A stretch of DNA of 64,000 nt. It comes from Aquisalimonas sp. 2447. GTDB lineage: Bacteria; Pseudomonadota; Gammaproteobacteria; Nitrococcales; Aquisalimonadaceae. A program made the translations under genes and the position numbers. Of the stretch, positions 23,614-36,970 are shown piece after piece. Where the stretch lies: NCBI RefSeq assembly GCF_012044895.1, contig NZ_CP050695.1, positions 3,874,501-3,938,500 on the forward strand, in the 5' to 3' direction. The notes beneath the pieces are model-generated. The model had not been told where the DNA came from and searched no databases. It saw only the letters and a program-made list of their open reading frames with translations. Numbering within the stretch: position 1 is the first letter of the stretch; every line of letters starts with the position of its first letter.

Positions 23614-23700
23614 CGTAGGGTGCATCTTGATGCACCTTCCCGACGCCAGCCAACCAGGGTGATTCGATCCAGGGCCGTCGCGGTGCATCAGCACCCTACG
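23614..23700. repeat. REP-like palindrome pair between moaA and cobM
   Basis: At 23614-23636 a CGTAGG end is followed by the hairpin GGTGCATCTTGATGCACC. A degenerate, inverted second unit (GGTGCATCA..GCACC, CCCTACG) closes the block at 23682-23700. The TAG stop codon of cobM (23696-23698) lies inside the final CCCTACG, so the element has become part of the gene end. Confidence 0.8.
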
Positions 23701-24463
23701 GTCCCTCGTCCAGCCCGCGGTACCGGCGGACGTGCTTCGGGTCATACAAGGCACTCTCGCGGAAGCCGGTGGCCCCCAGGGCCGGTCCCACCAGGATCAG
23801 GGCACTGCGCCGCATGGTGAGCGACGCCGTCGCCTCCACCAACTCGCTCAGCGGCGCACGGATCACGGTCTCGTCCGGCCAGCTCGCCCGCAGGACCACC
23901 GCCGCCGGGCAGTCGGCGCCGTACCAGGGCGTTAGCCGCGTCGCCACGTCCTCCAGGACGTGCAGGGACAGGTGTAGGGCCAAGGTGGTCCCGGTCGCGG
24001 CGAACGCCTCCAGCGTCTCCTTCGGCGGCATGGACGACGCCCGCCCCTGGGTGCGCGTGAGCACCAGGGATTGGGCCACTTCCGGGACCGTGAGTTCACA
24101 GCCCAGTGTCGCCGCCGCCGCGGAGAAGGCGGGCACCCCCGGCGTCAACGTGTAGTCGATGCCGGCGGCGTCCAGCCGGCGCAACTGCTCGGCCACGGCG
24201 CTGTAGACGGAGAGGTCCCCCGAGTGCAGCCGCGCCACGTCCAGGCCCCGGGCGTGGGCGGCGGTGATCTCGTCCATGATCGCGTCCAGGGTCATGGGCG
24301 CCGTGTTCACCAGGCGCGCTTCCGCCGGCGCGTGGGCCAGGATTTCCTCGGGCACCAGGGAGCCCGCGTACAGACAGACCGCGCAGGCGGCAATGCGATC
24401 GCGACCACGCAGGGTAAGCAGATCGGGGGCACCAGGACCGGCACCGACGAAATGGACGGTCAT
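23696..24463 (-). CDS. cobM: Precorrin-4 C11-methyltransferase CobM
   Basis: SAM-dependent tetrapyrrole methylase of corrin-ring synthesis, 255 residues. It starts with the family nucleotide-binding entry [18 protein letters not shown], with YAGSLVP near 35, [14 protein letters not shown] (the CobM/CbiF-type GD.S.YSA motif) and [12 protein letters not shown] near 108. The start is ATG 24463 with AGGAGG 5 nt upstream, overlapping the cobE stop (ATGA). It is the last gene of a minus-strand cobL-cobE-cobM operon. Its stop codon lies in a REP-like repeat. Confidence 0.92.
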
Positions 24464-24861
24464 GAACACCTCCTTGCTGATCCGATGGCGGCGGCGCAGG
24501 TGGCGAGGGCCCCGCGCCGCTTCGGGACGATCAGGCGGCGATCACCGCCCAGGACGGCCATGGCCGCCGCCTCGGCCACGGAACCAAGACCCACCGCCCG
24601 CCGGGCCCTGGCGGAATGGCCGGGCACGGCGTACTGCAACGCCTCCAGGGCCTGCTCGTCCGCGTACACGGGCGTCAGGGACAGGCGCTCGGCGACGGGC
24701 TCCAACAGACCGCTCCGGGACTTGCGGGCGGCGGTGGCGAGCAGGCCGCCTTGCGGGGAGACGTCGTGCTCGGCCGCCAGCTCGGCGAGGACGGCCGCGA
24801 CGAGTTCCGCCAGCGCATCCTCGTCACAGCGGCTACCGAACCCGACCCCCAGCGCGATCAC
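24460..24861 (-). CDS. cobE: Cobalamin biosynthesis protein CobE / CbiG C-terminal domain
   Basis: 133-residue protein of the CobE/CbiG-C family. It begins [16 protein letters not shown] (the family 'G.G.....ADEL' entry) and has a central [14 protein letters not shown], then a GSVAEAAAM segment. CobE is required for aerobic cobalamin synthesis but its exact reaction is not settled. The start is GTG 24861, overlapping the cobL stop (GTGA), with GGAGG immediately upstream. The end overlaps the cobM start by 4 bp. Confidence 0.8.
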
Positions 24862-26075
24862 GCCACCTCCAGCGCCCAGATGGTCACCGGCCGCAGGGGC
24901 TGCCAGCCGGTGAATCCGCCCAAGGGTTCCGCACGGCTGACAGCAAGCCGCGAGAGCTCACCGCCCCACTGCGCCGCCGCCCGCGCCAGCACCGCCTCGC
25001 CCTCCACGGTGACGCTGTTGGCCACCAGTCGCCCGCCGGGCGGCAGGGCCTCACGGCAGCGCTCCAGCAGGCCCGGCGTGGTCAGCCCGCCGCCGATGAA
25101 GACCGCGTGCGGCTGCGGGAGATCGGCCAACGCATCCGGTGCGGCGCCGGTGACGCACTGGAGATCCGGCACGCCGCAGGTCCGGGCGTTGTCGGAAACG
25201 AGGGCGCTACGGGCATGGTCGCGCTCCACCGCCACGGCACGATTGGCGGGGTCCGCCAGCATCCACTCGATGGCGATGGCACCGGAGCCGGCGCCCACGT
25301 CCCAGAGTACTTCACCGCGCCCCGGCGCCAGTGCGGCCAGGGTGGCGGCACGGACCTCGCGCTTGGTGATCTGGCCGTCGTGGGCGAACAGGTCATCCCG
25401 CCGGCCGGCGGTCGCCGCGATCACCCGCGCACCGGCGCCAGCGCGACAATCCACGGCAATGGTGTTCAGGTCAGCGGTCTGCTCGTCCGCCCACTGCTGG
25501 GCGGTGGTCTGACGGTGTTGCTCGTTCGGGCCACCCATGTGCGACAGCACGGTGAGCCCCGACGCCCCGAAGCCCACCTCCCGCAACAGACCGGCCAGCG
25601 CCGCCGCGGTGCTGCCGTCCCAGCTCAGGAGCAGCAACCGCGCGCCGTCGTGGAGCCACGGGCGCACCCGGTCCAGCGCGCGGCCGTGCACGGACAGACA
25701 GCGCACCTGCTGCAGCGGCCAGCCCATGCGGGCGGCGGCCAGGGTAAATGCCGACGGCGCGGGGTGGACGCTGATTTCCTGCGGCTCGACGTGGTGGGCC
25801 AGGGTCGCGCCGATGCCGTACCAGAAGGGATCGCCGCTGGCGAGCACACAGGTGGGCCGACCGCGGCGGGCAGTGACCCATGGCAGGGCCCGGTCCAGTG
25901 GCGACGGCCAGGCGATGCGCTCCTGGCCGGGATGTGCCGGGATTAGTCCCAGATGGCGCTCGCCGCCGAAGACGGTATCGGCGGCAGCGAGGGCGTCCCG
26001 CGCCGCCCGCGGGAGGCCGTCGACGCCGTCCTCGCCGATGCCGATAATGGTGAGCCAGGGGGTCACGTCAGACAT
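24858..26075 (-). CDS. cobL: Precorrin-6Y C5,15-methyltransferase (decarboxylating) CobL
   Basis: Bifunctional enzyme of 405 residues that methylates C-5 and C-15 and decarboxylates the acetate side chain of precorrin-6B. The N-terminal CbiE-like tetrapyrrole methylase (about 1-205) starts LTIIGIGEDGVDGL and has VLASGDPFWYG. The C-terminal CbiT-like Rossmann methyltransferase (about 215-400) has WDVGAGSGAIAIEW. ATG 26075 is preceded by GGGAGG. It is divergent from cobK, with a 26-kb-position inverted repeat in the gap. First gene of the minus-strand cobL-cobE-cobM group. Confidence 0.93.
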   Translation of the reverse strand: MSDVTPWLTIIGIGEDGVDGLPRAARDALAAADTVFGGERHLGLIPAHPGQERIAWPSPLDRALPWVTARRGRPTCVLASGDPFWYGIGATLAHHVEPQEISVHPAPSAFTLAAARMGWPLQQVRCLSVHGRALDRVRPWLHDGARLLLLSWDGSTAAALAGLLREVGFGASGLTVLSHMGGPNEQHRQTTAQQWADEQTADLNTIAVDCRAGAGARVIAATAGRRDDLFAHDGQITKREVRAATLAALAPGRGEVLWDVGAGSGAIAIEWMLADPANRAVAVERDHARSALVSDNARTCGVPDLQCVTGAAPDALADLPQPHAVFIGGGLTTPGLLERCREALPPGGRLVANSVTVEGEAVLARAAAQWGGELSRLAVSRAEPLGGFTGWQPLRPVTIWALEVA

Positions 26076-26160: not shown

Positions 26161-26247
26161 AGGGGCGGGGAGTTGTCTGCGCGGCAGACGCTGTTGCCGC
26201 GACCGACCGCCACGCGGGGAGCCCGCCCCGGACAACGGAGCACGACC

Positions 26248-26988
26248 ATGCAGGTCCTCATCCTCGCCGGCACCAGTGAGGCCACCAGCCTGGCTCGGCA
26301 ACTGGACGACCACCCGACCATCCAGGCCCAGGTGTCCCTGGCCGGCCGCACCAGGGCGCCGGAGGTTCCGGACCTGCCGCACCGCATCGGCGGCTTCGGC
26401 GGGGTCGACGGGCTGGCGCAGTATCTGCGGGAGGCGCGCATCGACGCCCTGGTGGACGCCACCCACCCCTTCGCCGCCACGATGACGGCCAACGCCGTGG
26501 CCGCCGCCCGGGCGACGGAGATTCCCCTGGCCATCCTGCGGCGCCCGGAGTGGCAGCCCAGGCCGGACGACCACTGGCTGCCCGTGCCCGACCTGGAGGC
26601 CGCCGCCGATACGCTGCGCGAGCTCGGCCACCGGGTGCTGGTCACCACCGGCCGCCAGGGGCTCGCCGCCTTCCAGCGTACACCGGACAAGCATTACGTG
26701 ATCCGGACCATCGACCCGCCGGAGCCGCCGCCGGCGCTGCCCGATGCGGTCTACCTGCAGGCGCGCGGGCCGTTCCGACTGGACGAGGAGACCGCCCTGC
26801 TGGACGCCCACGGCATCGACGTGATGGTCTCCAAGGCCAGCGGCGGTGACGCCACCTGCGCCAAGCTGGGCGCGGCTCGGGCGCGGGGCATTCCAGTGGT
26901 CATGGTGCAGCGTCCACCGGAGCCGCAGGGGGTGCCGGCATTCAGCGAGGCGGCCGACGTGGTGCGGTGGCTGGAGGGGCATGGTTAG
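26248..26988 (+). CDS. cobK: Precorrin-6A reductase CobK
   Basis: NADPH-dependent reductase of the corrin macrocycle, 246 residues. The N-terminus QVLILAGTSEATSLARQL is the family nucleotide-binding signature, followed by VDATHPFAATMTANA near residue 70, VLVTTGRQGL near 130 and MVSKASGGDATCAKLGAA near 195. ATG 26248 has GGAG 7 nt upstream; the frame is open upstream to 26173 without similarity. It is the only plus-strand cob gene here, divergent from cobL and convergent with cobJ across the repeat-filled gap. Confidence 0.92.
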   Translation: MQVLILAGTSEATSLARQLDDHPTIQAQVSLAGRTRAPEVPDLPHRIGGFGGVDGLAQYLREARIDALVDATHPFAATMTANAVAAARATEIPLAILRRPEWQPRPDDHWLPVPDLEAAADTLRELGHRVLVTTGRQGLAAFQRTPDKHYVIRTIDPPEPPPALPDAVYLQARGPFRLDEETALLDAHGIDVMVSKASGGDATCAKLGAARARGIPVVMVQRPPEPQGVPAFSEAADVVRWLEGHG

Positions 26989-27479
26989 GCTCGTCGGGGC
27001 GGTACTGATACCCCGATGGTGCGTTGTTCGAGGCCGATGGCGGTGCACCGATGCCGAATCGGTGGACCTGAAGGTCCACCCTACGAGGGGTTGGCGGTGC
27101 ATCAAGATGCACCCTACGGGGGGCGTCGGCCTGGCGGGGGTGCTTGGGGTGGCGGCGATGGCCGCCCGGGTGCGCGGTGACGGCGCCGGTGCACGTCGCC
27201 GGGTGGGGGCCGGCGTATCCATGATGCCGGCGGCGAGGACGTACCCCCCGTAGGGTGCATCTTGATGCACCGATGGGGCCTTGTTCGATGCCGAGAAAAG
27301 CGTCGACGCAGGGTGGACCTTCAGGTCCACCGATTCGGCGTCGATGCGCCACCGTGGCTTGCATGTCTGTGGAAGGTGGACCTGAAGGTCCACCCTACGC
27401 GGGGTTCGCGGTGCATCAAGATGCACCCTACGTAGGGCTGCGCGGTGTGTGCCCTCTGTCCGTCGGCGCGCAGATACCT
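26989..27479. repeat. Intergenic block filled with REP-like palindromes
   Basis: No gene is visible in this 490-bp gap between the convergent ends of cobK and cobJ. It holds at least six hairpin units. Type A, GGTGCATCTTGATGCACC or its complement, is at 27096-27113, 27254-27271 and 27410-27427. Type B, GGTGGACCTGAAGGTCCACC or its complement, is at 27061-27080, 27312-27331 and 27375-27394. Units end in CTACG or begin with CGTAGG (one copy has GCAGGG), always on the outside of the hairpin. Longer flanks are also shared: a GATGCCGAATC stretch before 27061 is inverted after 27331, and a TTGTTCGA-GCCGA tract occurs near both 27025 and 27282. This suggests duplication of composite units. Confidence 0.88.
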
Positions 27480-28250
27480 TCATGATCCCGCCACCTCCGG
27501 ATAGGAGCGCGGCGTGTACACCCGGGTGACGCCGCCGTGCCGGAACGCGCGCGTGGTGGACGCGCCCACCAGCACCAGGGTGCGCATGTCGGCGTCCCGG
27601 GGGTCGGCGTCCGCCAGGGTGGTGATGCGGACGGACTCGTCCCCGCCGCGCCCCACGGCCTTGGCCAGGATCACCGGCGTCGCCGGTGCGTGCACCGTGC
27701 GCAGCACGTCCAGGGCGGCGCCGAGCTGCCAGGGACGAGCCCTGGAGATGGGGTTGTAGAGGGCGATGGCGAAGTCCCCCTCCGCGGCCAGGCGCAGGCG
27801 CCGTTCCACCAGCGCCCATGGCTTGAGGTTGTCGGACAGGGACATGACACAGAAATCGTTGCCCAGCGGTGCGCCCAGGCGTGCGGCGGCGGCCTGCATG
27901 GCGGAGACACCCGGCTCCACCGTCACGTCCACGGTGGCCCAGCGTCCTTCATCATCGGCGTCCAGCGCCTCCATCACCGCCGCGGCCATGGCGAACACCC
28001 CGGGGTCGCCGCCGGAGACCACGACAACCCGACCGCCGTCCCGCGCCATGTCCAGGGCATGCTGCGCCCGCGCCAGCTCCTCGCGGTTGTCCGAGGCGTG
28101 GTGCCGCGCCCCGGGGTTATCCACCCGCGTCAGATAGGGACCGTAGCCCACCAGATCCGTGGCCTGCGCCAGGGTGGCCGTCGTCTCCGGCGTCACCCAG
28201 TCGGGCCCGGCGGGCCCGTTGCCGACCACGCGCAGCCAGCCCGCGCTCAT
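27480..28250 (-). CDS. cobJ: Precorrin-3B C17-methyltransferase CobJ
   Basis: SAM-dependent methylase performing C-17 methylation and ring contraction, 256 residues. Family features: LRVVGNGPAGPDWVTPE at the start, DLVGYGPYL near 34, VVVVSGGDPGVFAMA near 76, VEPGVSAMQAAAARLGAPLG near 112 and ALYNPISRARPWQL near 163. ATG 28250 overlaps the cobI stop (ATGA). It is the last gene of the cbiD-ABC-cobG-cobH-cobI-cobJ operon. The convergent repeat block follows it. Confidence 0.93.
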   Translation of the reverse strand: MSAGWLRVVGNGPAGPDWVTPETTATLAQATDLVGYGPYLTRVDNPGARHHASDNREELARAQHALDMARDGGRVVVVSGGDPGVFAMAAAVMEALDADDEGRWATVDVTVEPGVSAMQAAAARLGAPLGNDFCVMSLSDNLKPWALVERRLRLAAEGDFAIALYNPISRARPWQLGAALDVLRTVHAPATPVILAKAVGRGGDESVRITTLADADPRDADMRTLVLVGASTTRAFRHGGVTRVYTPRSYPEVAGS

Positions 28251-28993
28251 CGTCGCTCCCCGGTGCCGGGCACCACGATCATGGAAAAGTACGGCGCCTT
28301 GTCCACGGCCGCCTCGCTCAGGGGGCAGAACCGCTCGGCGTCCATGCTGGAGCGCTCCACGTACCAGGCACGCTCGCTCATGCCGAGGGTCTCCAGCACC
28401 CCGACGATGCGCTCCAGGTTGCTCCCCACCTTCATGATCACCGCCGCGTCGGCGCCGTCCAGGCGCGCCCGCAGGGCCGTATCAGGCAGCGTGCCGGGGA
28501 TCACCGAGAGCACGTCATCGCGCATGGTCAGCGGTGTCGGCAACAGGGCCGCGCTGCTCATCACCGAGGCCACGCCGGGGATCACCGTGGACGGGAACTG
28601 GTCCTTGAGCCGCAGGTAGACGTGCATGAACGAGCCGTAGAAGAAGGGATCACCCTCGTTCAGCACCACCACCGACCGGCCCGCCTGCAGGTGGCCGGCC
28701 AGCATCTCGGCGGCAGCGTCGAAAAAGCCTTCGATCCGGTCCCGGTACTCCTGGGAGGTGTGCGGCAGCTCCGTGGTCACCGGATAGACCATGGGCTCCT
28801 CGCGCTGCGCCGCGCCGATGTGGGCGTCGGCGATCTCGCGGGCGTTGCCGCGCTTGCCCCGTTTGCAGAAGTACGCCACCACGTCGGCGGCGGCGATCAG
28901 TCGCGCCGCCTTGAGGGTGATGAGTTCCGGGTCGCCCGGGCCGGTGCCGATGCCGTAGAGCCGGCCGCCCTCGATTGCTGTCTCTGTCGCCAT
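28247..28993 (-). CDS. cobI: Precorrin-2 C20-methyltransferase CobI
   Basis: SAM-dependent methylase that commits precorrin-2 to the corrin pathway, 248 residues. The start GRLYGIGTGPGDPELITLKA is the family entry; VVVLNEGDPFFYGSFMHVYLRL and VIPGVASVMSSAAL are further signatures. Its start lies 4 nt after the cobH stop, and its own stop overlaps the cobJ start by 4 bp. Confidence 0.94.
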   Translation of the reverse strand: MATETAIEGGRLYGIGTGPGDPELITLKAARLIAAADVVAYFCKRGKRGNAREIADAHIGAAQREEPMVYPVTTELPHTSQEYRDRIEGFFDAAAEMLAGHLQAGRSVVVLNEGDPFFYGSFMHVYLRLKDQFPSTVIPGVASVMSSAALLPTPLTMRDDVLSVIPGTLPDTALRARLDGADAAVIMKVGSNLERIVGVLETLGMSERAWYVERSSMDAERFCPLSEAAVDKAPYFSMIVVPGTGERR

Positions 28994-28997
28994 GGCG

Positions 28998-29630
28998 TCA
29001 CCACCGCTCCGTTGCCAGGGCGTTCACCGCCGCGGCGGCCATGGCGCTGCCGCCGCGACGGCCGAACACCGTCAGGTAGTCGAGATCCGCCGCGTACGCC
29101 GCCAGGGACTCCTTGCTCTCCACCGCGCCGACGAAGCCAACGGGCATGCCCAGCACCGCGGCCGGGCGCGGCGCACCGGCATCCAGCATCTCCAGCAGAC
29201 GAAACAGCGACGTCGGCGCGTTGCCGATGGCCACCACCGCGCCCGCCAGATCCTCGCGCCACAGCTCCATGGCCGCCGCGGAACGGGTGTTGCCCAGTTG
29301 CTCCGCCAGGGCCGGCACGCCCTCGTCGCGCAGGGTGCAGACCACCCGGTTGTCCACCGGCAGCCGCGCGCGGGTGATGCCGTGGGCCACCATCTGGCTG
29401 TCGCAGAGGATCGGCGCGCCGGCGGCAAGGGCCCGCCTTGCGGCATCACCCACGCCCGTGGAGAAGCCCACGTCGGCGGCCAGGTCGGTCATGCCGCAGG
29501 CATGGATCATGCGCACCACCGCCGGCAGCAGGGTTGCGGGAAACCGCGCCAGGTCCGCCTCCGCCTGGATGATGGCGAAGGACTGGCGATAGATCGCCTG
29601 GCCGTCGCGGATGTAATCGAGTTCAGACAC
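28998..29630 (-). CDS. cobH: Precorrin-8X methylmutase CobH
   Basis: Isomerase that moves the C-11 methyl group to C-12 to give hydrogenobyrinate, 210 residues. It starts [20 protein letters not shown] and has [13 protein letters not shown] near 45 with the catalytic His, then [15 protein letters not shown] and [11 protein letters not shown], with [12 protein letters not shown] near the end. I choose GTG 29630 because the family begins there; the frame continues upstream inside cobG. The start overlaps the cobG end by 8 bp, and a GAGGAGGAA ribosome site lies in the last codons of cobG. Confidence 0.93.
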
Positions 29631-31020
29631 GCGTTGTTTCCTCCTCCACGCGCCGGACCACGCTCTCGCGGCCCAGGCGACTGATGAATGCGTCCAGGGA
29701 CTCCCGGGGCGCATGCCGTTCCCGGGCAAACAGGGTGTCCAGCGCCGCCACCCGCCGGCGGACCGTGGCCGGCGGCGCGGGCGGCCAATCCGGGGCGTGC
29801 GCCACGCCCCCGGTCAGGGTCATGGCGTAGTAACCGGCATCCGCCACCAGGGTCACTCCCGCGTGTGCCGGCGCCCCGCAGCCCTTGCCGCAGCCGGAGA
29901 CATGCACCCGCTCCCCGGCCGCCAGCAGGGTCGGCGCCACGGCCTCGAGCGCCAGGGCGTCGTCGCGGGTAGCGGTGGTGGCCGAGGCGCAGCCGGGTGC
30001 GCCAACGCAGGCGCCCAGCCCGCGGCGGGGGTCGGCGGCATCGGTGATCGCGCCCAGCTCGCCCAAGGCGGTGACGGCGGCCGGCTCCATCCCGGTGATG
30101 AGCACACTGCGCCAGGGGGTCAGGCGGAGCGTCGGTGGCGTCTCCGGCGCCAGGCGTCGCTCACGAGCCAGCACCGCCAGTCCCCGGAGCTGCCAGGCCT
30201 CCAGGGCGCCGAACGGGAATTCCGCCTGCAGCCAGCCATCCGCGGCCCGCGGCGCCTGGCGGTCGCCCGGTTCCGGGGCAACGACATCGCCGGACCATGG
30301 CGCCAGCGCGCGGCGGAACGGCGCCTCGCCCCGCTCCAGCAGTGCCGTAGCCATGCGCGGCGGTTGCCCTTCCCCGGCCAGGTCGACAAGCGCCTCCAGC
30401 AGCGCAACGACAGCTGCAGCCGTATCCTGCGGGCCGATCGTGCCCACCGGTCGGGCATCCGCCGCACGCCCTGCCAGGCCAACGCGCCAGGCAACCCCCT
30501 GCGCCACCGGCACGGCGTCCAGGCGCACGTCGGCGTAGACATCCGGGACACCCAGGGTGCCGCCGCCATCGACCACGATTCCGGTCTTGGGCGGCAGACC
30601 GCGCAGTCGCGGATGGTCGGCCACTGCATCCGCCACGGCCCGGGCCACGGGGGCGCCATCGGCCACCGCCGTTGGGTCCAGATCGGTGACCGGGGCGGCG
30701 AGGACATTGCGCACCGCCTCGCGCTCCGGGTCCGCATCCGCCACGCCGGCACGGATCAAGGCGGTCTGGGCGTCGGTCAGGGTTGTCCGGGTGACGCCCC
30801 GAAGCTGCAGGTTGCCGCGGGAGGTCAGTTCCAGCCGGCCATTGCCGTGGCGCTCTGCCGCCGCGGCAAGGGCTTCGGCCTGTTCGAGGGTCAGCCCGCC
30901 GACGGGATGGCGCACCCGCAGCAGCAACCCGTCGCCGCTGGTCATGGGTGCCGCCACGCCGGGGCAGGCACCCCGCACCTGCGGCTGTTGCGGCGTGTCA
31001 TGACTCCGTGTCCGCGTCAT
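29623..31020 (-). CDS. cobG: Precorrin-3B synthase CobG
   Basis: Oxygen-dependent hydroxylase/lactone-forming enzyme of the aerobic pathway, 465 residues, of the sulfite/nitrite-reductase superfamily. Two ferredoxin-like half domains (about 40-120 and 270-330) are followed by the 4Fe-4S ligands: Cys338 and Cys344 (ACVGAPGC), Cys377 and Cys381 (SGCGKGC). This gene marks the oxygen-dependent route. Its ATG overlaps the stop of the ABC permease gene (ATGA), and its end overlaps cobH by 8 bp. Confidence 0.9.
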
Positions 31021-31790
31021 GGCTTCACCCGTGTCCCGCGCGCCACCAGCGCCCAGGCCACGGCCCCGGTGATCACCGTGGCCAGGCCCAGCATGGTGAA
31101 CGTGGTCGTCCAGGGCAGTGCCCCGCTACCCAGCAGCCCATGGCGGAAACCGTCGATGAGGTAGTACATGGGGTTGGCCAGGGACAGGCTCTGCCACGGC
31201 TCGGCCAGGCGCTCCACCGGGTAGAACAGACCGCCCAGGTAGATCAGCGGCGTGAGCACGAAGGTGGCCACCACCGAGGTGTGATCGAAGGTGCGGGCGA
31301 AGATGCCGTTGATCAGCCCGGCGAACGCGAACAGCAGGGCGGCCAGCAACGCCAGGCCCAGCGTGGCACCCGGGTGATGCAGCTGCAGCCCGGTGAGCGG
31401 CAGGGCCAGGGCGGCCACCAGCAGCCCCACCAGCAGCCCACGCAGCACACCGCCGGTGACGAAGCCGGCAACGATGAGCCAGGCGGGCATGGGCGCCACC
31501 AGCAGCTCCTCGATATGGCGCTGCAGCTTGGCGCCGAAGAAGGACAGGGTGACATTGTTGTAGGCGTTGGTGACCACCGCCAGCATGACCAGCCCGGGCA
31601 TGAGGAACTCGGTGTAGCCGACACCGCCCATGGTGCCGATCTCCCGGCCCACCAGCTCCCCCAGCACCACCAGGAACAGCATCGCCGTCACCACCGAGGG
31701 CAGCAGGGTCTGCACCCAGGTGCGCAGGAAACGCCGCAGCTGCTTGACCACCATGCCCCGGTAGCCGAACCAGTACCCGGCCGCACTCAT
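31017..31790 (-). CDS. ABC-2 type transporter permease inside the cob operon
   Basis: Inner-membrane permease of 257 residues with six hydrophobic helices, ABC-2 family (YadH-like exporters). Landmarks are LLPSVVTAMLFLVVLGELVG near residue 30, EFLMPGLVMLAVVTNAYNN near 62 and LTPLIYLGGLFYPVERLAEPW near 185, typical of this family. It overlaps its ATPase gene upstream (stop/start ATGA) and cobG downstream by 4 bp, so it is translated as part of the cobalamin operon. The exported compound is unknown. Such exporters are not among the usual B12 genes. Confidence 0.88.
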   Translation of the reverse strand: MSAAGYWFGYRGMVVKQLRRFLRTWVQTLLPSVVTAMLFLVVLGELVGREIGTMGGVGYTEFLMPGLVMLAVVTNAYNNVTLSFFGAKLQRHIEELLVAPMPAWLIVAGFVTGGVLRGLLVGLLVAALALPLTGLQLHHPGATLGLALLAALLFAFAGLINGIFARTFDHTSVVATFVLTPLIYLGGLFYPVERLAEPWQSLSLANPMYYLIDGFRHGLLGSGALPWTTTFTMLGLATVITGAVAWALVARGTRVKP

Positions 31791-32719
31791 GACGCCCCCT
31801 GCGTGCCGCCGCGGACCCGCTCCAGGAAGAGCTGCTCCAGGCGATTGGTCTTGTTGCGAAGGCTCGCCACCGCCAGTCCCTGGGCGCTGAGCTCGGCGAA
31901 GAGACCGTTGAGGGGTTGGCCCCGGGGCACGTCCACCTCCAGGGTGCGCGGGTCCACCTGCCGCACCGTGATACCGCCAAGATCCGGCGGGCGCGGGTGA
32001 TCGGCGGCGAGGTCCAGCACCAGGGTGTCGTGATCCAGGCCCTGGAGCAGTTCCGCGGGCGTGCCGCGCGCGGCGATGCGCCCGCCGTCGATGAACGCCA
32101 GGTCATCGCAGAGCTGCTCCGCTTCTTCCAGGTAGTGGGTGGTAAGCAGCACGGTGGTGCCGGCGGCGTTGAGCCCGCGCAGCAGCTCCCACAGGGTGTG
32201 GCGCGCCTCCACGTCGACGCCGGCGGTGGGCTCGTCCAGCAGCAGCAGACGGGGTTCGTGGACCAGCGCCCGGGCGATCATCAGCCGCCGCTTGAAGCCG
32301 CCAGAGAGCCCCCAGGCGGTCTGCCGCGCCCGGTCCGCCAGCCCCAGGAGCTCCAGCACCGCCTGGGTGCGCTGCCGGGCGCGGCGGGGGGAGAGGCCGT
32401 AGTAGGCCGCCTGGCTGGCGACGATCTCGCCCACGGGCTCGAAACTATTGAAGTTCACCTCCTGGGGCACCAGCCCGATTCGTCGCCGGGCGGCGACCGG
32501 CTCCCGCGCCAGGTCGTGGCCGAACACCCGGATGCGACCCCGCTCCAGGCGCACCAGCGAACTCAGCAGCCCGATCAGCGTGGTCTTGCCGGCGCCGTTG
32601 GGGCCCAGCAGGCCGAAGAACGCGCCCGCCCGCACTTGGAGATCCACGCCATCGAGCCCGACGCGGCCGCTGGCGTAGCGCTTGGCGAGCCCTTCCATGT
32701 GCAGTGCCGGTGTGCTCAT
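31787..32719 (-). CDS. ABC transporter ATP-binding protein inside the cob operon
   Basis: ATPase of 310 residues, YadG-like, partner of the following ABC-2 permease. Walker A GPNGAGKTT near residue 40, signature LSGGFKRRL near 138, Walker B LLLLDEPTAGVD near 158, and a C-terminal regulatory part. ATG 32719 has GGGAG 4 nt upstream and overlaps the cbiD stop (ATGA). The frame continues upstream within cbiD but without similarity. Inferred role: energising export of an unidentified molecule made or used together with cobalamin. Confidence 0.88.
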   Translation of the reverse strand: MSTPALHMEGLAKRYASGRVGLDGVDLQVRAGAFFGLLGPNGAGKTTLIGLLSSLVRLERGRIRVFGHDLAREPVAARRRIGLVPQEVNFNSFEPVGEIVASQAAYYGLSPRRARQRTQAVLELLGLADRARQTAWGLSGGFKRRLMIARALVHEPRLLLLDEPTAGVDVEARHTLWELLRGLNAAGTTVLLTTHYLEEAEQLCDDLAFIDGGRIAARGTPAELLQGLDHDTLVLDLAADHPRPPDLGGITVRQVDPRTLEVDVPRGQPLNGLFAELSAQGLAVASLRNKTNRLEQLFLERVRGGTQGAS

Positions 32720-33855
32720 GTGACTCCCTGTTCCGCCGTGCCCACCAGGCGCCCACCGCGGTCCACGGCGCACACGTCCAGGGCGATGTCGTCGGGCAGA
32801 CGGCGGCGTGCCTGATCGAAGGCGCGGGCGCAGATGCGGTCCCCCAGCGGGATGCCCGTCTCCCGGCACAGCGCCAGGGCCTCGATGCTGGTATTGCAGG
32901 CGCGCATGCGTGCCTGCAGCTCGGCGGCTGCCCCCAGGGCCCCGGCCTCGTCGGCGAGGCCGTCCAGGTCGATACTGCACTTGCGGCTGTGGGTGTCCGC
33001 GTGGCCGGCGGCGAATTTGCTCAACTTGCCGAAACCGCCGGCCAGGGTGACCCGGGACAGGGGGTGGTGGCGGATGTACTTGAGCACGCCGCCGATGAGA
33101 TCGCCCATCTCGATCAGGGCCATGTCGTCCAGGCCGTAGCGCTCCCGCGCCAGCGCTTCACTGGAGCCGCCGGTGCAGCACGCCACGTGTTCAATGCCGT
33201 TGGCGCGGGCCACGTCCACGGACTGGTGGATGGAGGCGATGTAGGCGGCGCAGGAGAACGGCCGGACGATGCCGGTGGTGCCCAGGATCGACAGCCCGCC
33301 CTGGATACCGAGCCGGCCGTTCATGGTGCGCTGGGCAATCCTTTCACCGTCGTCCACGCCCACTGTTACGTCGAAACCGCCGGCGTAGTCGGCACCGGTT
33401 GCGCACTCCAGCAGGTGATCGGTGATCATCCGGCGCGGCACCGGATTGATGGCCGGCTCGCCCACGGGCACCGGCAGACCGGAGCGGGTGACCGTGCCCA
33501 CGCCGTCGCCGGCGTGAAAGACCACGCCCACCGCGGCGCGCAGGCGCACATGCGCCCAGACCCGGGCGCCGTGGGTGGCATCGGGATCGTCGCCGCCGTC
33601 CTTGATCACACCGGCCAGGGCGCCATCGGCAATGGCGGTGGCATCGTTGAGCGTGAGCTCCACCGTCTGGCCGCGCGGCAGCACCACTCCCGTGGCCGCT
33701 CCGGCGGCTTGACCCAGCGCCAGGCGCGCCGCGGCCACCGCGGCGGCGGTGGCGCACACGCCGGTACTCAGACCGGTGCGCAGGGCACCGGCCGACTCCC
33801 GGCTCTCCGGGCGCATGGTGGCGCTGGTCGTGGTTGCGTGATGATTGTCCGTCAC
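32716..33855 (-). CDS. cbiD: Cobalt-precorrin-5B C1-methyltransferase CbiD
   Basis: SAM-dependent C-1 methylase, 379 residues. Recognisable by ALRTGLSTGVCATAAAVAAA near the start, INPVPRRMI in the middle, LGIQGGLSILGTTGIVRPFS near 185 and VTLAGGFGKLSKFAAGHADTHS near 275. I choose GTG 33855 with AGGA 8 nt upstream. The longer frame to 34170 runs through the cobalamin riboswitch and is not coding. It heads the operon. CbiD belongs to the anaerobic route, but in several aerobic bacteria it stands in for CobF. No cobF gene is visible in this window. Confidence 0.9.
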   Translation of the reverse strand: MTDNHHATTTSATMRPESRESAGALRTGLSTGVCATAAAVAAARLALGQAAGAATGVVLPRGQTVELTLNDATAIADGALAGVIKDGGDDPDATHGARVWAHVRLRAAVGVVFHAGDGVGTVTRSGLPVPVGEPAINPVPRRMITDHLLECATGADYAGGFDVTVGVDDGERIAQRTMNGRLGIQGGLSILGTTGIVRPFSCAAYIASIHQSVDVARANGIEHVACCTGGSSEALARERYGLDDMALIEMGDLIGGVLKYIRHHPLSRVTLAGGFGKLSKFAAGHADTHSRKCSIDLDGLADEAGALGAAAELQARMRACNTSIEALALCRETGIPLGDRICARAFDQARRRLPDDIALDVCAVDRGGRLVGTAEQGVT

Positions 33856-33969
33856 CGGCACGTTCCTGGTCAGGGGAACCGGGGCAGGCAAGGGGGAATC
33901 AGGTGTCAACGGCTTCGGCAGGTCCGGCGCGCTTGACCCGGTTCCACCGCACCCCGCGGTTCCAGGCTC

Positions 33970-34192
33970 CTGCAGGCCGGTCTCCGGGCTCGTGGATGGG
34001 GGCGCGTTGCACTCCCGGCGGACTGCCTTCCCGGCGCGCCGTGGGGCGCAGCCAGTGGCGTCGATCATCCGCCCTGTCCACCTACCGTTGCGGGGGCAGC
34101 GCCGGACTTGCGATGGAGATCGCGCACCGGCTTCCCGATTCTCCTCGCAACCGGTCTGGCTGCGAGACACCTGCGGAACACGGCACCTTAGG
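33970..34192 (-). promoter_or_regulatory. Cobalamin riboswitch upstream of cbiD
   Basis: On the minus strand the conserved blocks appear in order: an AAGGTGCC start near 34190; GGGAAGCCGGTG near 34133; TCCGGCGCTGCCCCCGCAAC near 34105-34086, followed by GGTA; GCCACTG near 34050; GGGAAGG near 34020; and the B12 box GAGCCCGGAGACCGGCCTG at about 33991-33973. This is the standard adenosylcobalamin riboswitch layout. It sits 115 nt before the cbiD start, so B12 would repress the whole operon. The spurious N-terminal extension of the cbiD frame is explained by this RNA. Confidence 0.92.
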
Positions 34193-34295
34193 TGAGGGGG
34201 GCGGGAGGGTCAAGTTGGCGACCTGCAGGGAATTATTTCTTATTTGTACAATCCATATACAATAATGCTGACGCCGATGACAGAGCGATACGACC

Positions 34296-35069
34296 ATGAC
34301 AGCCAACGCTGACGCCGACCGATTCGATGCCACCGTCGATCCCGCCGAGGTGGAACGCTACCGCGCGCTGGCGGACATGTGGTGGCAGCGTGACGGCAAG
34401 CTGTGGCCGCTACACGTACTGAACGAGCTGCGGACCGGTTACATCCGCGACCAGCTGGCAGCACTGCACGGCCGGGACCCCGCGGACCCGGAGCCCCTGC
34501 GCGGCCTGCGCATGCTGGATATCGGTTGCGGCGGCGGTCTGCTGAGCGAGGCCATGGCACGGCTGGGCGCCGACGTCCACGGCGTGGACGTGGTGGACAG
34601 CAACACCCAGGTGGCGCGACTGCATGCCGCCGAACAGGGGCTCGCCATCGACTACGAAACCACCACCGCGGAAGCACTCACCGAGCGCGGCGCCCGCTAC
34701 GACGTCGTGCTGAACATGGAGGTGGTGGAACACGTGGCCGATCTTCCGGCCTTCATGGCGGCGGTGAACCGACTGGTGGCTCCCGGCGGCCACACGTTCG
34801 TGGCCACCATCAACCGCAACCCGGTGTCGTACGTGGTGGCCATCCTGGGGGCGGAGTACATCTTCCGGCTACTGCCCAAGGGCACGCACCAGTGGTCGCG
34901 CTTTCCCACCCCGGAGGAAATCGACACGCTGCTGCAGCGGGACGGCATCCGCGTCATTCGCCGTACTGGCGTGAAGGTCAATCCGCTCACCCGCCGCATG
35001 TGGCTGTCACCCTCGCTGAGCGTGAACTACATGCTGCTGGCGGAGCGGGGGAGACACGCCCGCGCCTGA
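34296..35069 (+). CDS. ubiG: Ubiquinone biosynthesis O-methyltransferase UbiG
   Basis: SAM-dependent methyltransferase acting at two O-methylation steps of ubiquinone synthesis, 257 residues. The N-terminal segment WWQRDGKLWPLHVLNELR and the SAM motif MLDIGCGGGLLSEAMARLG near residue 72 are diagnostic, followed by VVLNMEVVEHVADLP and the C-terminal SRFPTPEEI. The start ATG has only a weak ribosome site. Upstream, an AT-rich stretch (34231-34264) holds possible -10 sequences (TATACA/TACAAT), but the -35 is poor. No other ubi gene is adjacent. Confidence 0.92.
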   Translation: MTANADADRFDATVDPAEVERYRALADMWWQRDGKLWPLHVLNELRTGYIRDQLAALHGRDPADPEPLRGLRMLDIGCGGGLLSEAMARLGADVHGVDVVDSNTQVARLHAAEQGLAIDYETTTAEALTERGARYDVVLNMEVVEHVADLPAFMAAVNRLVAPGGHTFVATINRNPVSYVVAILGAEYIFRLLPKGTHQWSRFPTPEEIDTLLQRDGIRVIRRTGVKVNPLTRRMWLSPSLSVNYMLLAERGRHARA

Positions 35070-36699: not shown

Positions 36700-36707
36700 C
36701 TCGCAGA

Positions 36708-36970
36708 GTCCATCTTGATGCACCGGCGAGGATATGCCGGCCCAGCCGTAGCCAGCCCAACCGTAGGGCGGACTTTCAGGTCCGCCGATGGCGTTCGGGT
36801 AAACCACCATGGCGTGTATGCCCGGTAACGGCGGACCTGAAGGTCCGCCCTACGTTGCTTCCGGGCCGGGCCACTGGCTCGTAGGGTGCATCTTGATGCA
36901 CCGCAATCACCCCGCATCCAGCCACCTTGGTTGGCCGGTCTCCAGAAGGTTCATCAAGATGCACCCTTCG
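36708..36970. repeat. Cluster of REP-like palindromes
   Basis: Five units lie in the 293-bp gap between the amine oxidase and the convergent TauE/SafE gene. A degenerate type-A unit is at 36708-36723. Type-B units with GC-shifted arms (GGCGGAC..GTCCGCC) are at 36762-36786 and 36830-36854. Type-A units are at 36880-36902 and 36948-36970 (the last with CTTCG for CTACG). The two type-B units are inverted relative to each other, and so are the last two type-A units. Arm changes are compensated on both sides (TG/CA versus CG/CG), which supports selection for the hairpin. Confidence 0.88.

Follow-up and report, generated by a model that had tools for sequence, protein, structure and literature searches.

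We examined a two-gene ABC-2 exporter that lies inside the cobalamin (B12) synthesis operon of a salt-loving bacterium, an Aquisalimonas. The stretch of DNA analyzed, called the window here, is 64,000 nucleotides long and covers positions 3874501–3938500 of a 3.97-Mb single-contig genome (G000:C1). Its minus strand carries, in this order, a cobalamin riboswitch, cbiD, the genes for an ABC (ATP-binding cassette) ATPase and an ABC-2 permease, cobG, cobH, cobI and cobJ, and the exporter pair occupies 31017–32719. The ATPase gene (31787–32719) encodes 310 aa with a Pfam ABC_tran domain (PF00005), and the permease gene (31017–31790) encodes 257 aa with an ABC2_membrane domain (PF01061, E 8e-35). 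The riboswitch (RF00174, 33958–34189) was found by cmscan with 87 bits and E 4.5e-20, against a gathering score of 31.5. The genes that flank the pair are cbiD, for cobalt-precorrin-5B C1-methyltransferase (32716–33816; NF000849 462 bits, TIGR00312 391 bits), and cobG, for precorrin-3B synthase (29623–31020; TIGR02435 287 bits, cut-off 234.8). The start of cbiD is uncertain (ATG 33816, GTG 33855 or GTG 33861), and its distance from the riboswitch ranges from 96 bases for GTG 33861 to 141 bases for ATG 33816. Aquisalimonas lutea CECT 8326 and a metagenome-assembled genome of Aquisalimonas are the closest named relatives at this locus, with 84–85% identity over the permease. A genome search placed G005 and G007 in the same genus as the host.

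The original prediction reported 4-bp overlaps of the ATPase gene with cbiD and of the permease gene with cobG. Both were confirmed, and the ATPase/permease junction was found to be a third, each overlap falling within ATGA. A GGAG-like sequence stands immediately upstream of the ATPase start. Taken alone, a 4-base overlap is an ordinary bacterial operon junction, but the arrangement is more than chance because it is conserved among the six genomes that carry the pair. The cbiD/ATPase junction is −4 in all six (GTGA in one), the ATPase/permease junction is −4 in five and −1 in the sixth, and the permease/cobG junction is −4 in four, while the remaining genomes have gaps of +10 and +79 there. 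Therefore, the claim that the pair is translationally embedded in a B12 operon downstream of a riboswitch holds across six genomes of three families.

A same-strand cobalamin riboswitch was found upstream of the pair in each of the six genomes. It stands immediately before cbiD in the three Aquisalimonas loci (the window, L007 and L008), before cobN in G173 and G287, and before a BtuB-like gene followed by cobN in G141. In these last three genomes the run continues after cobN with an exbB-like gene, a DUF2149 gene, cobO, cobB, cobA and cbiD, with all matched genes on the same strand and some unannotated stretches within the run. Each of them also has a second riboswitch outside the cluster, past its far end, where it precedes a gene for a TonB-dependent receptor. 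When 26900–34400 in the window was scanned with simple consensus patterns, no site resembling a terminator turned up, and the only promoter-like site was a weak one at 28.3 kb, which falls within the coding run. With the aptamer upstream on the same strand and the genes co-directional, the pair appears to belong to the cobalamin-riboswitch regulon and is probably co-transcribed with its neighbors; a single transcript would then cross the whole run.

The distribution of the pair was surveyed with the permease and CbiD as queries. Among 54 genomes of the order, CbiD was matched in 9, and a permease above 80% identity was found only in the three Aquisalimonas genomes with cbiD. The other two Aquisalimonas genomes (G006; G008, 82% complete) had neither a cbiD match nor a cob-linked permease. 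Across the class (369 genomes), three more permeases were found at 69–72% identity (G141, G173 and G287), the next best listed being 51%. These three genomes belong to two other families (f93 and f125), and each carries the pair between cbiD and cobG, as do all six genomes with this cob-linked clade. Among the matches listed for the phylum (398 genomes) there was no further permease above 50%, and the orders of G287 (3 genomes; 1 other, 82% complete) and G141 (12 genomes; 11 others) yielded no additional copy. The original prediction had named confinement of the pair to this strain as an outcome that would count against it; instead, the pair sits at the same slot in six genomes of three families, which rules out a strain-specific accident.

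CbiD itself is more widespread, being matched in 37 of the 369 class genomes. The CbiD proteins with at least 65% identity to that of the window, self counted, were those of G000, G141, G173 and G287, all with the pair, while G031, from the same order, has a CbiD at 64% with no pair beside it. When cbiD loci were searched with short flanks (tblastn and profile), 6 of 38 had the pair and 32 did not. These 38 loci came from 45 cbiD-matching genomes, with 7 left out, flanks of up to 1.5 kb and 5 loci cut by a contig end; the CbiD query started 12 codons ahead of the likely ATG start. Near CobG, none of 60 other Pseudomonadota genomes had a permease-like frame within 7.5 kb on each side (one was cut by its contig); towards the edge of the stretch searched, four showed an ATPase-like frame that no permease accompanied. 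Each of the 60 loci had at least six matching cob queries by tblastn, a count to be read knowing that methyltransferase paralogues cross-match. The 60 were hand-picked from 91 listed, excluding G000, 8 weaker matches and 22 that matched from model position 5–7. Twenty of those 22 were checked with 1.5-kb flanks and showed no other cob gene and no pair; these CobG-family places look like other sulfite/nitrite-reductase-type genes. The absence from 60 CobG neighborhoods and from 32 other cbiD flanks indicates that the pair is a lineage-specific addition, not a general part of B12 synthesis, and it bears out, as far as surveyed, the earlier statement that YadGH-type exporters lie outside known B12 pathways. 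Since nine of the 60 pair-less loci also match cbiD, the pathway with both CobG and CbiD does not generally need the pair.

The term YadGH-type holds at the level of the subfamily, as the permease scored 308.2 bits against NF011648/PRK15066 (YadGH-like; curated cut-off 225) and the pair shares the two-gene build of an ATPase and a permease. It does not hold in the sense of an ordinary copy, since the cob-linked copies form a separate clade and the host genome also carries an ordinary YadGH-like copy (L050) at 45% identity. The permease is 50% identical to proteins that E. coli records label as yadH and 41–51% identical to the other class copies among the matches listed; plasmid records gave 62 permease matches, 30 of them listed, all below 60%. 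In trees of 46 permeases and 46 ATPases, the six cob-linked copies split off together on a long stem supported at 100/100 and fall outside the ordinary YadGH-like copies for both chains. The ATPase motifs GPNGAGK, LSGG and LDEP, which we take to be the Walker A, signature and Walker B motifs, are present in all six cob-linked copies. DrrAB and NodIJ are among the nearest named NCBIfam ABC-2 subfamilies for both chains, but the scores fall under their cut-offs (drrB 80.6 vs. 223, drrA 237 vs. 312, nodJ 54 vs. 207). A phmmer search of the permease against PDB sequences gave no match at E 0.01. The neighbors of L050 and of L057, the nearest outsider in the permease tree, gave no hint of a substrate. 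At L009 (36% identity) only the pair was matched among the 20 window proteins searched, so that this copy lies outside a cob operon as far as the 20.7 kb of the locus reaches. As a separate observation, G287 and G173 have no YadH-level copy besides the cob-linked one at E ≤ 1e-60, unlike many genomes of the class.

Selection on the pair was estimated from the ratio of nonsynonymous to synonymous substitution rates (dN/dS, Nei–Gojobori, dS 0.4–1.0). Within Aquisalimonas the ratio was 0.16–0.22 for the permease and 0.20–0.28 for the ATPase, compared to 0.14–0.26 for cobH, 0.13–0.24 for cobI, 0.19–0.34 for cobJ and 0.32–0.40 for cobG. The pair is therefore under purifying selection and evolves about as slowly as the core cob enzymes. 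A decayed or idle insertion was ruled out by these values and the intact ATPase motifs. The comparison took in ten genes of the operon and cluster, among which cobG evolved fastest, with 59–63% identity within the genus compared to 71–88% for the others.

The two chains differ in how far they depart from ordinary YadGH-like exporters. Residues that are fixed in the cob clade and rare elsewhere number 54 in the permease and 28 in the ATPase; H170, R194 and H217 are examples of clade-specific residues. In four ordinary YadGH-like clades the same class of residue numbered 23/24, 11/17, 8/21 and 27/26 (permease/ATPase), or 69/88 when pooled; rows L003, L009 and L057 were excluded from the comparison set. 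Fisher's test gave p = 0.0017 for the cob clade against the pooled controls and p = 0.065, 0.016, 0.0005 and 0.11 against the single ones, values that serve only as a guide because the residues are not independent. Conservation towards the rest pointed the same way, being 0.44 for the cob-clade permease and 0.50 for its ATPase, whereas in the ordinary clades the permease is the better conserved chain. We have moderate confidence that the transmembrane chain was remodeled once and then held, as these comparisons would indicate. Since the divergence from ordinary YadGH is mainly in the permease, it suggests that the pair may have a new substrate.

Next, we consider the other B12 transport genes of these genomes. 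A BtuC-like import permease is encoded elsewhere in all six (100, 88, 80, 60, 42 and 40% identity). In G141, where the identity is 60%, the match runs across a single in-frame TGA, and the two weakest matches (42 and 40%) adjoin a BtuB-like gene. BtuB-like receptors were found in all four genomes looked at. With these genes B12 uptake seems to be covered without any need for the pair to act as an importer, and a role as a replacement for BtuCD was ruled out by the BtuC-like matches. BtuCDF is likewise an ABC transporter in a cobalamin-riboswitch regulon, and the host has one elsewhere in its genome, but it uses an FecCD permease and a periplasmic binding protein, whereas the pair has an ABC2_membrane permease and a separate locus. 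The host has a second B12 locus (L122, G000:C1:126081–139712) with a riboswitch and BtuB-like, CobN, ExbB-like, DUF2149, BtuF-like and BtuC-like genes, as well as an ATPase and CobB/CobO/CobQ-type genes. Another cobalamin riboswitch, a strong one (95.5 bits; L123, G000:C1:172858–173090), stands upstream of a gene for a TonB-dependent receptor and a PepSY_TM gene. This unusual riboswitch target could serve in the uptake of cobalt or corrinoids.

Several explanations of the pair were weighed. It could export a finished corrinoid, either cobalamin or a cobamide, and so release B12 to neighboring cells; a pump inside the operon would supply it at a rate linked to synthesis. However, the cobalamin riboswitch class usually represses when cobalamin is plentiful, so the upstream riboswitch is expected to shut such a pump off at high cobalamin, the wrong sense for export of the product, and the BtuC-like importers and BtuB-like receptors would counteract the release. 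We consider this quite improbable. Another explanation is that the pair exports a lipid, an envelope component or a drug, and was fixed in the operon by chance with no corrin cargo. Lipids, glycans or drugs are indeed what most ABC-2 exporters transport, ABCA lipid transporters are the solved proteins nearest in sequence to the ATPase, and the NCBIfam matches include DrrAB-like drug exporters. This explanation is nonetheless unlikely given the same slot and the mostly kept overlaps in three families, the lack of the pair in both Aquisalimonas genomes in which cbiD was not matched, and the remodeling of the permease relative to ordinary YadGH-like copies.

Movement of cobalt or a cobalt chelate, in or out, appears very improbable. 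Inward transport is unusual for the ABC-2 fold, and the permease belongs to ABC2_membrane, not to CbiM or FecCD. B12 operons and B12-riboswitch regulons do include cobalt importers, since CbiMNQO and CbtJKL are encoded with or controlled like B12 synthesis according to a review (PMC7689651). By contrast, the six clusters have no CbiM-type or binding-protein gene between cbiD and cobG, where the pair lies. The same review describes cobalt import as controlled by products such as adenosylcobalamin, and efflux as generally controlled by cobalt itself and carried out by other protein families (PMC7689651). Cobalt export, one of the roles put forward in the original prediction, was therefore disfavored and rejected as unlikely, given the B12-type control and the protein family. 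A last explanation, compatible with the others, is that the conservation reflects the spread of one ready-made operon between families, so that the six cases are one event. The identical gene order in all six, including a reversed cobK between cobJ and cobL, and the lack of further copies in the orders of G141 and G287 favor such a spread. On the other side, purifying selection has kept the pair intact, and most of its overlaps have been retained, while the sequences diverged to about 70%. We regard a single spread as possible, at somewhat under even odds; it limits the functional inference but does not remove it.

We favor, at a probability of about 0.4, the explanation that the corrin pathway recruited the pair as an exporter, whose probable task is to expel a by-product or an intermediate that has leaked. 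Export of a corrinoid intermediate or of a by-product was among the roles put forward in the original prediction. The pair would have arisen as a paralogue of an ordinary YadGH-like exporter and then been fixed in the corrin operon of one lineage. It would be made together with CbiD and CobG at low cobalamin, and its dose would be tied to that of the corrin enzymes because of the riboswitch and the overlapping reading frames. The pump, presumably of two permease and two ATPase chains, would use ATP hydrolysis to push a tetrapyrrole of the corrin pathway out across the inner membrane. Corrin intermediates before cobalt insertion are sensitive to oxygen and light, and the CobG step uses oxygen. 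For this reason, the likeliest cargo would be a by-product, or a leaked, oxidized or dead-end precorrin from the oxygen-dependent steps around CobG. A pump made at low B12 alongside CbiD and CobG would also be badly timed for the disposal of B12 or cobalt and well timed for the products of corrin synthesis.

Several results weigh against recruitment to the corrin pathway. Operons that contain CobG without the pair are the rule (none of 60 had it), and the dN/dS of the permease rises to 0.32–0.39 between families, like that of most other genes. Two of the four single controls gave non-significant p values for permease remodeling (0.065 and 0.11). AlphaFold2 models of four permeases had a mean confidence score (pLDDT) of 52.7, at which the remodeled residues could not be placed in a cavity. 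The support on substrate and direction is indirect. Also, the six genomes represent one operon lineage, which may reflect a single recruitment followed by block transfer.

To our knowledge, how compounds of the B12 pathway leave bacterial cells is not settled. A 2024 paper found no genetic sign of a B12 exporter in the system it studied and assumed lysis (PMC11525543). The portions of PMC11525543, PMC8123684, PMC10924375 and PMC7689651 covered describe no ABC-2 exporter in a cob operon, which is a partial cover of the literature and does not show absence from print, and those of PMC8123684 contain no occurrence of export or efflux. In the pair we have a testable candidate for a pump by which some compound of the B12 pathway is cleared from the cell. 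It may even be the first dedicated corrin-pathway exporter in bacteria, derived from YadGH, with a permease re-tuned to a corrin or precorrin and a dose locked by the overlaps and the B12 riboswitch, but we hold this stronger claim to be doubtful. A pump fixed in the B12 operon of a named strain, A. lutea CECT 8326, offers a concrete gene pair for deletion. The case also shows that a transport gene can join a very conserved pathway in a single lineage, which would help show which precorrins leak or do harm.

The remaining genes of the co-directional run are cobH, for precorrin-8X methylmutase (28998–29627; NF006136 341 bits), cobI, for precorrin-2 C20-methyltransferase (28247–28993; NF004647 323 bits), and cobJ, for precorrin-3B C17-methyltransferase, which closes the run (27480–28250; TIGR01466 270 bits). 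Past cobJ lie repeats, a plus-strand open reading frame that is presumably cobK, then cobL, a cobE-like gene, cobM and moaA. The putative cobK, for precorrin-6A reductase, spans 26236–26988 with a guessed start, and we base its name on its position in the cluster and on sequence features. On the minus strand, cobL (24858–26063) combines CbiE and CbiT, with TIGR02467 and TIGR02469 both above cut-off, the cobE-like gene (24460–24861) has a CbiG C-terminal domain (PF01890), and cobM (23696–24469) encodes precorrin-4 C11-methyltransferase (TIGR01465 299 bits). In all six clusters (L007, L008, L054, L055, L056 and the window) cobK lies between cobJ and cobL but runs on the opposite strand, and this inversion has been retained in all three families. 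Two kinds of palindrome resembling repetitive extragenic palindromic (REP) elements are clustered between cobJ and cobK (27039–27438) and also occur in other spaces, at 23619, 36707–36965 and 38749. With up to two mismatches, GGTGGACCTNNAGGTCCACC was found 5 times in the window compared to 0.01 expected, and GGTGCATCNNGATGCACC 7 times compared to 0.05 expected.

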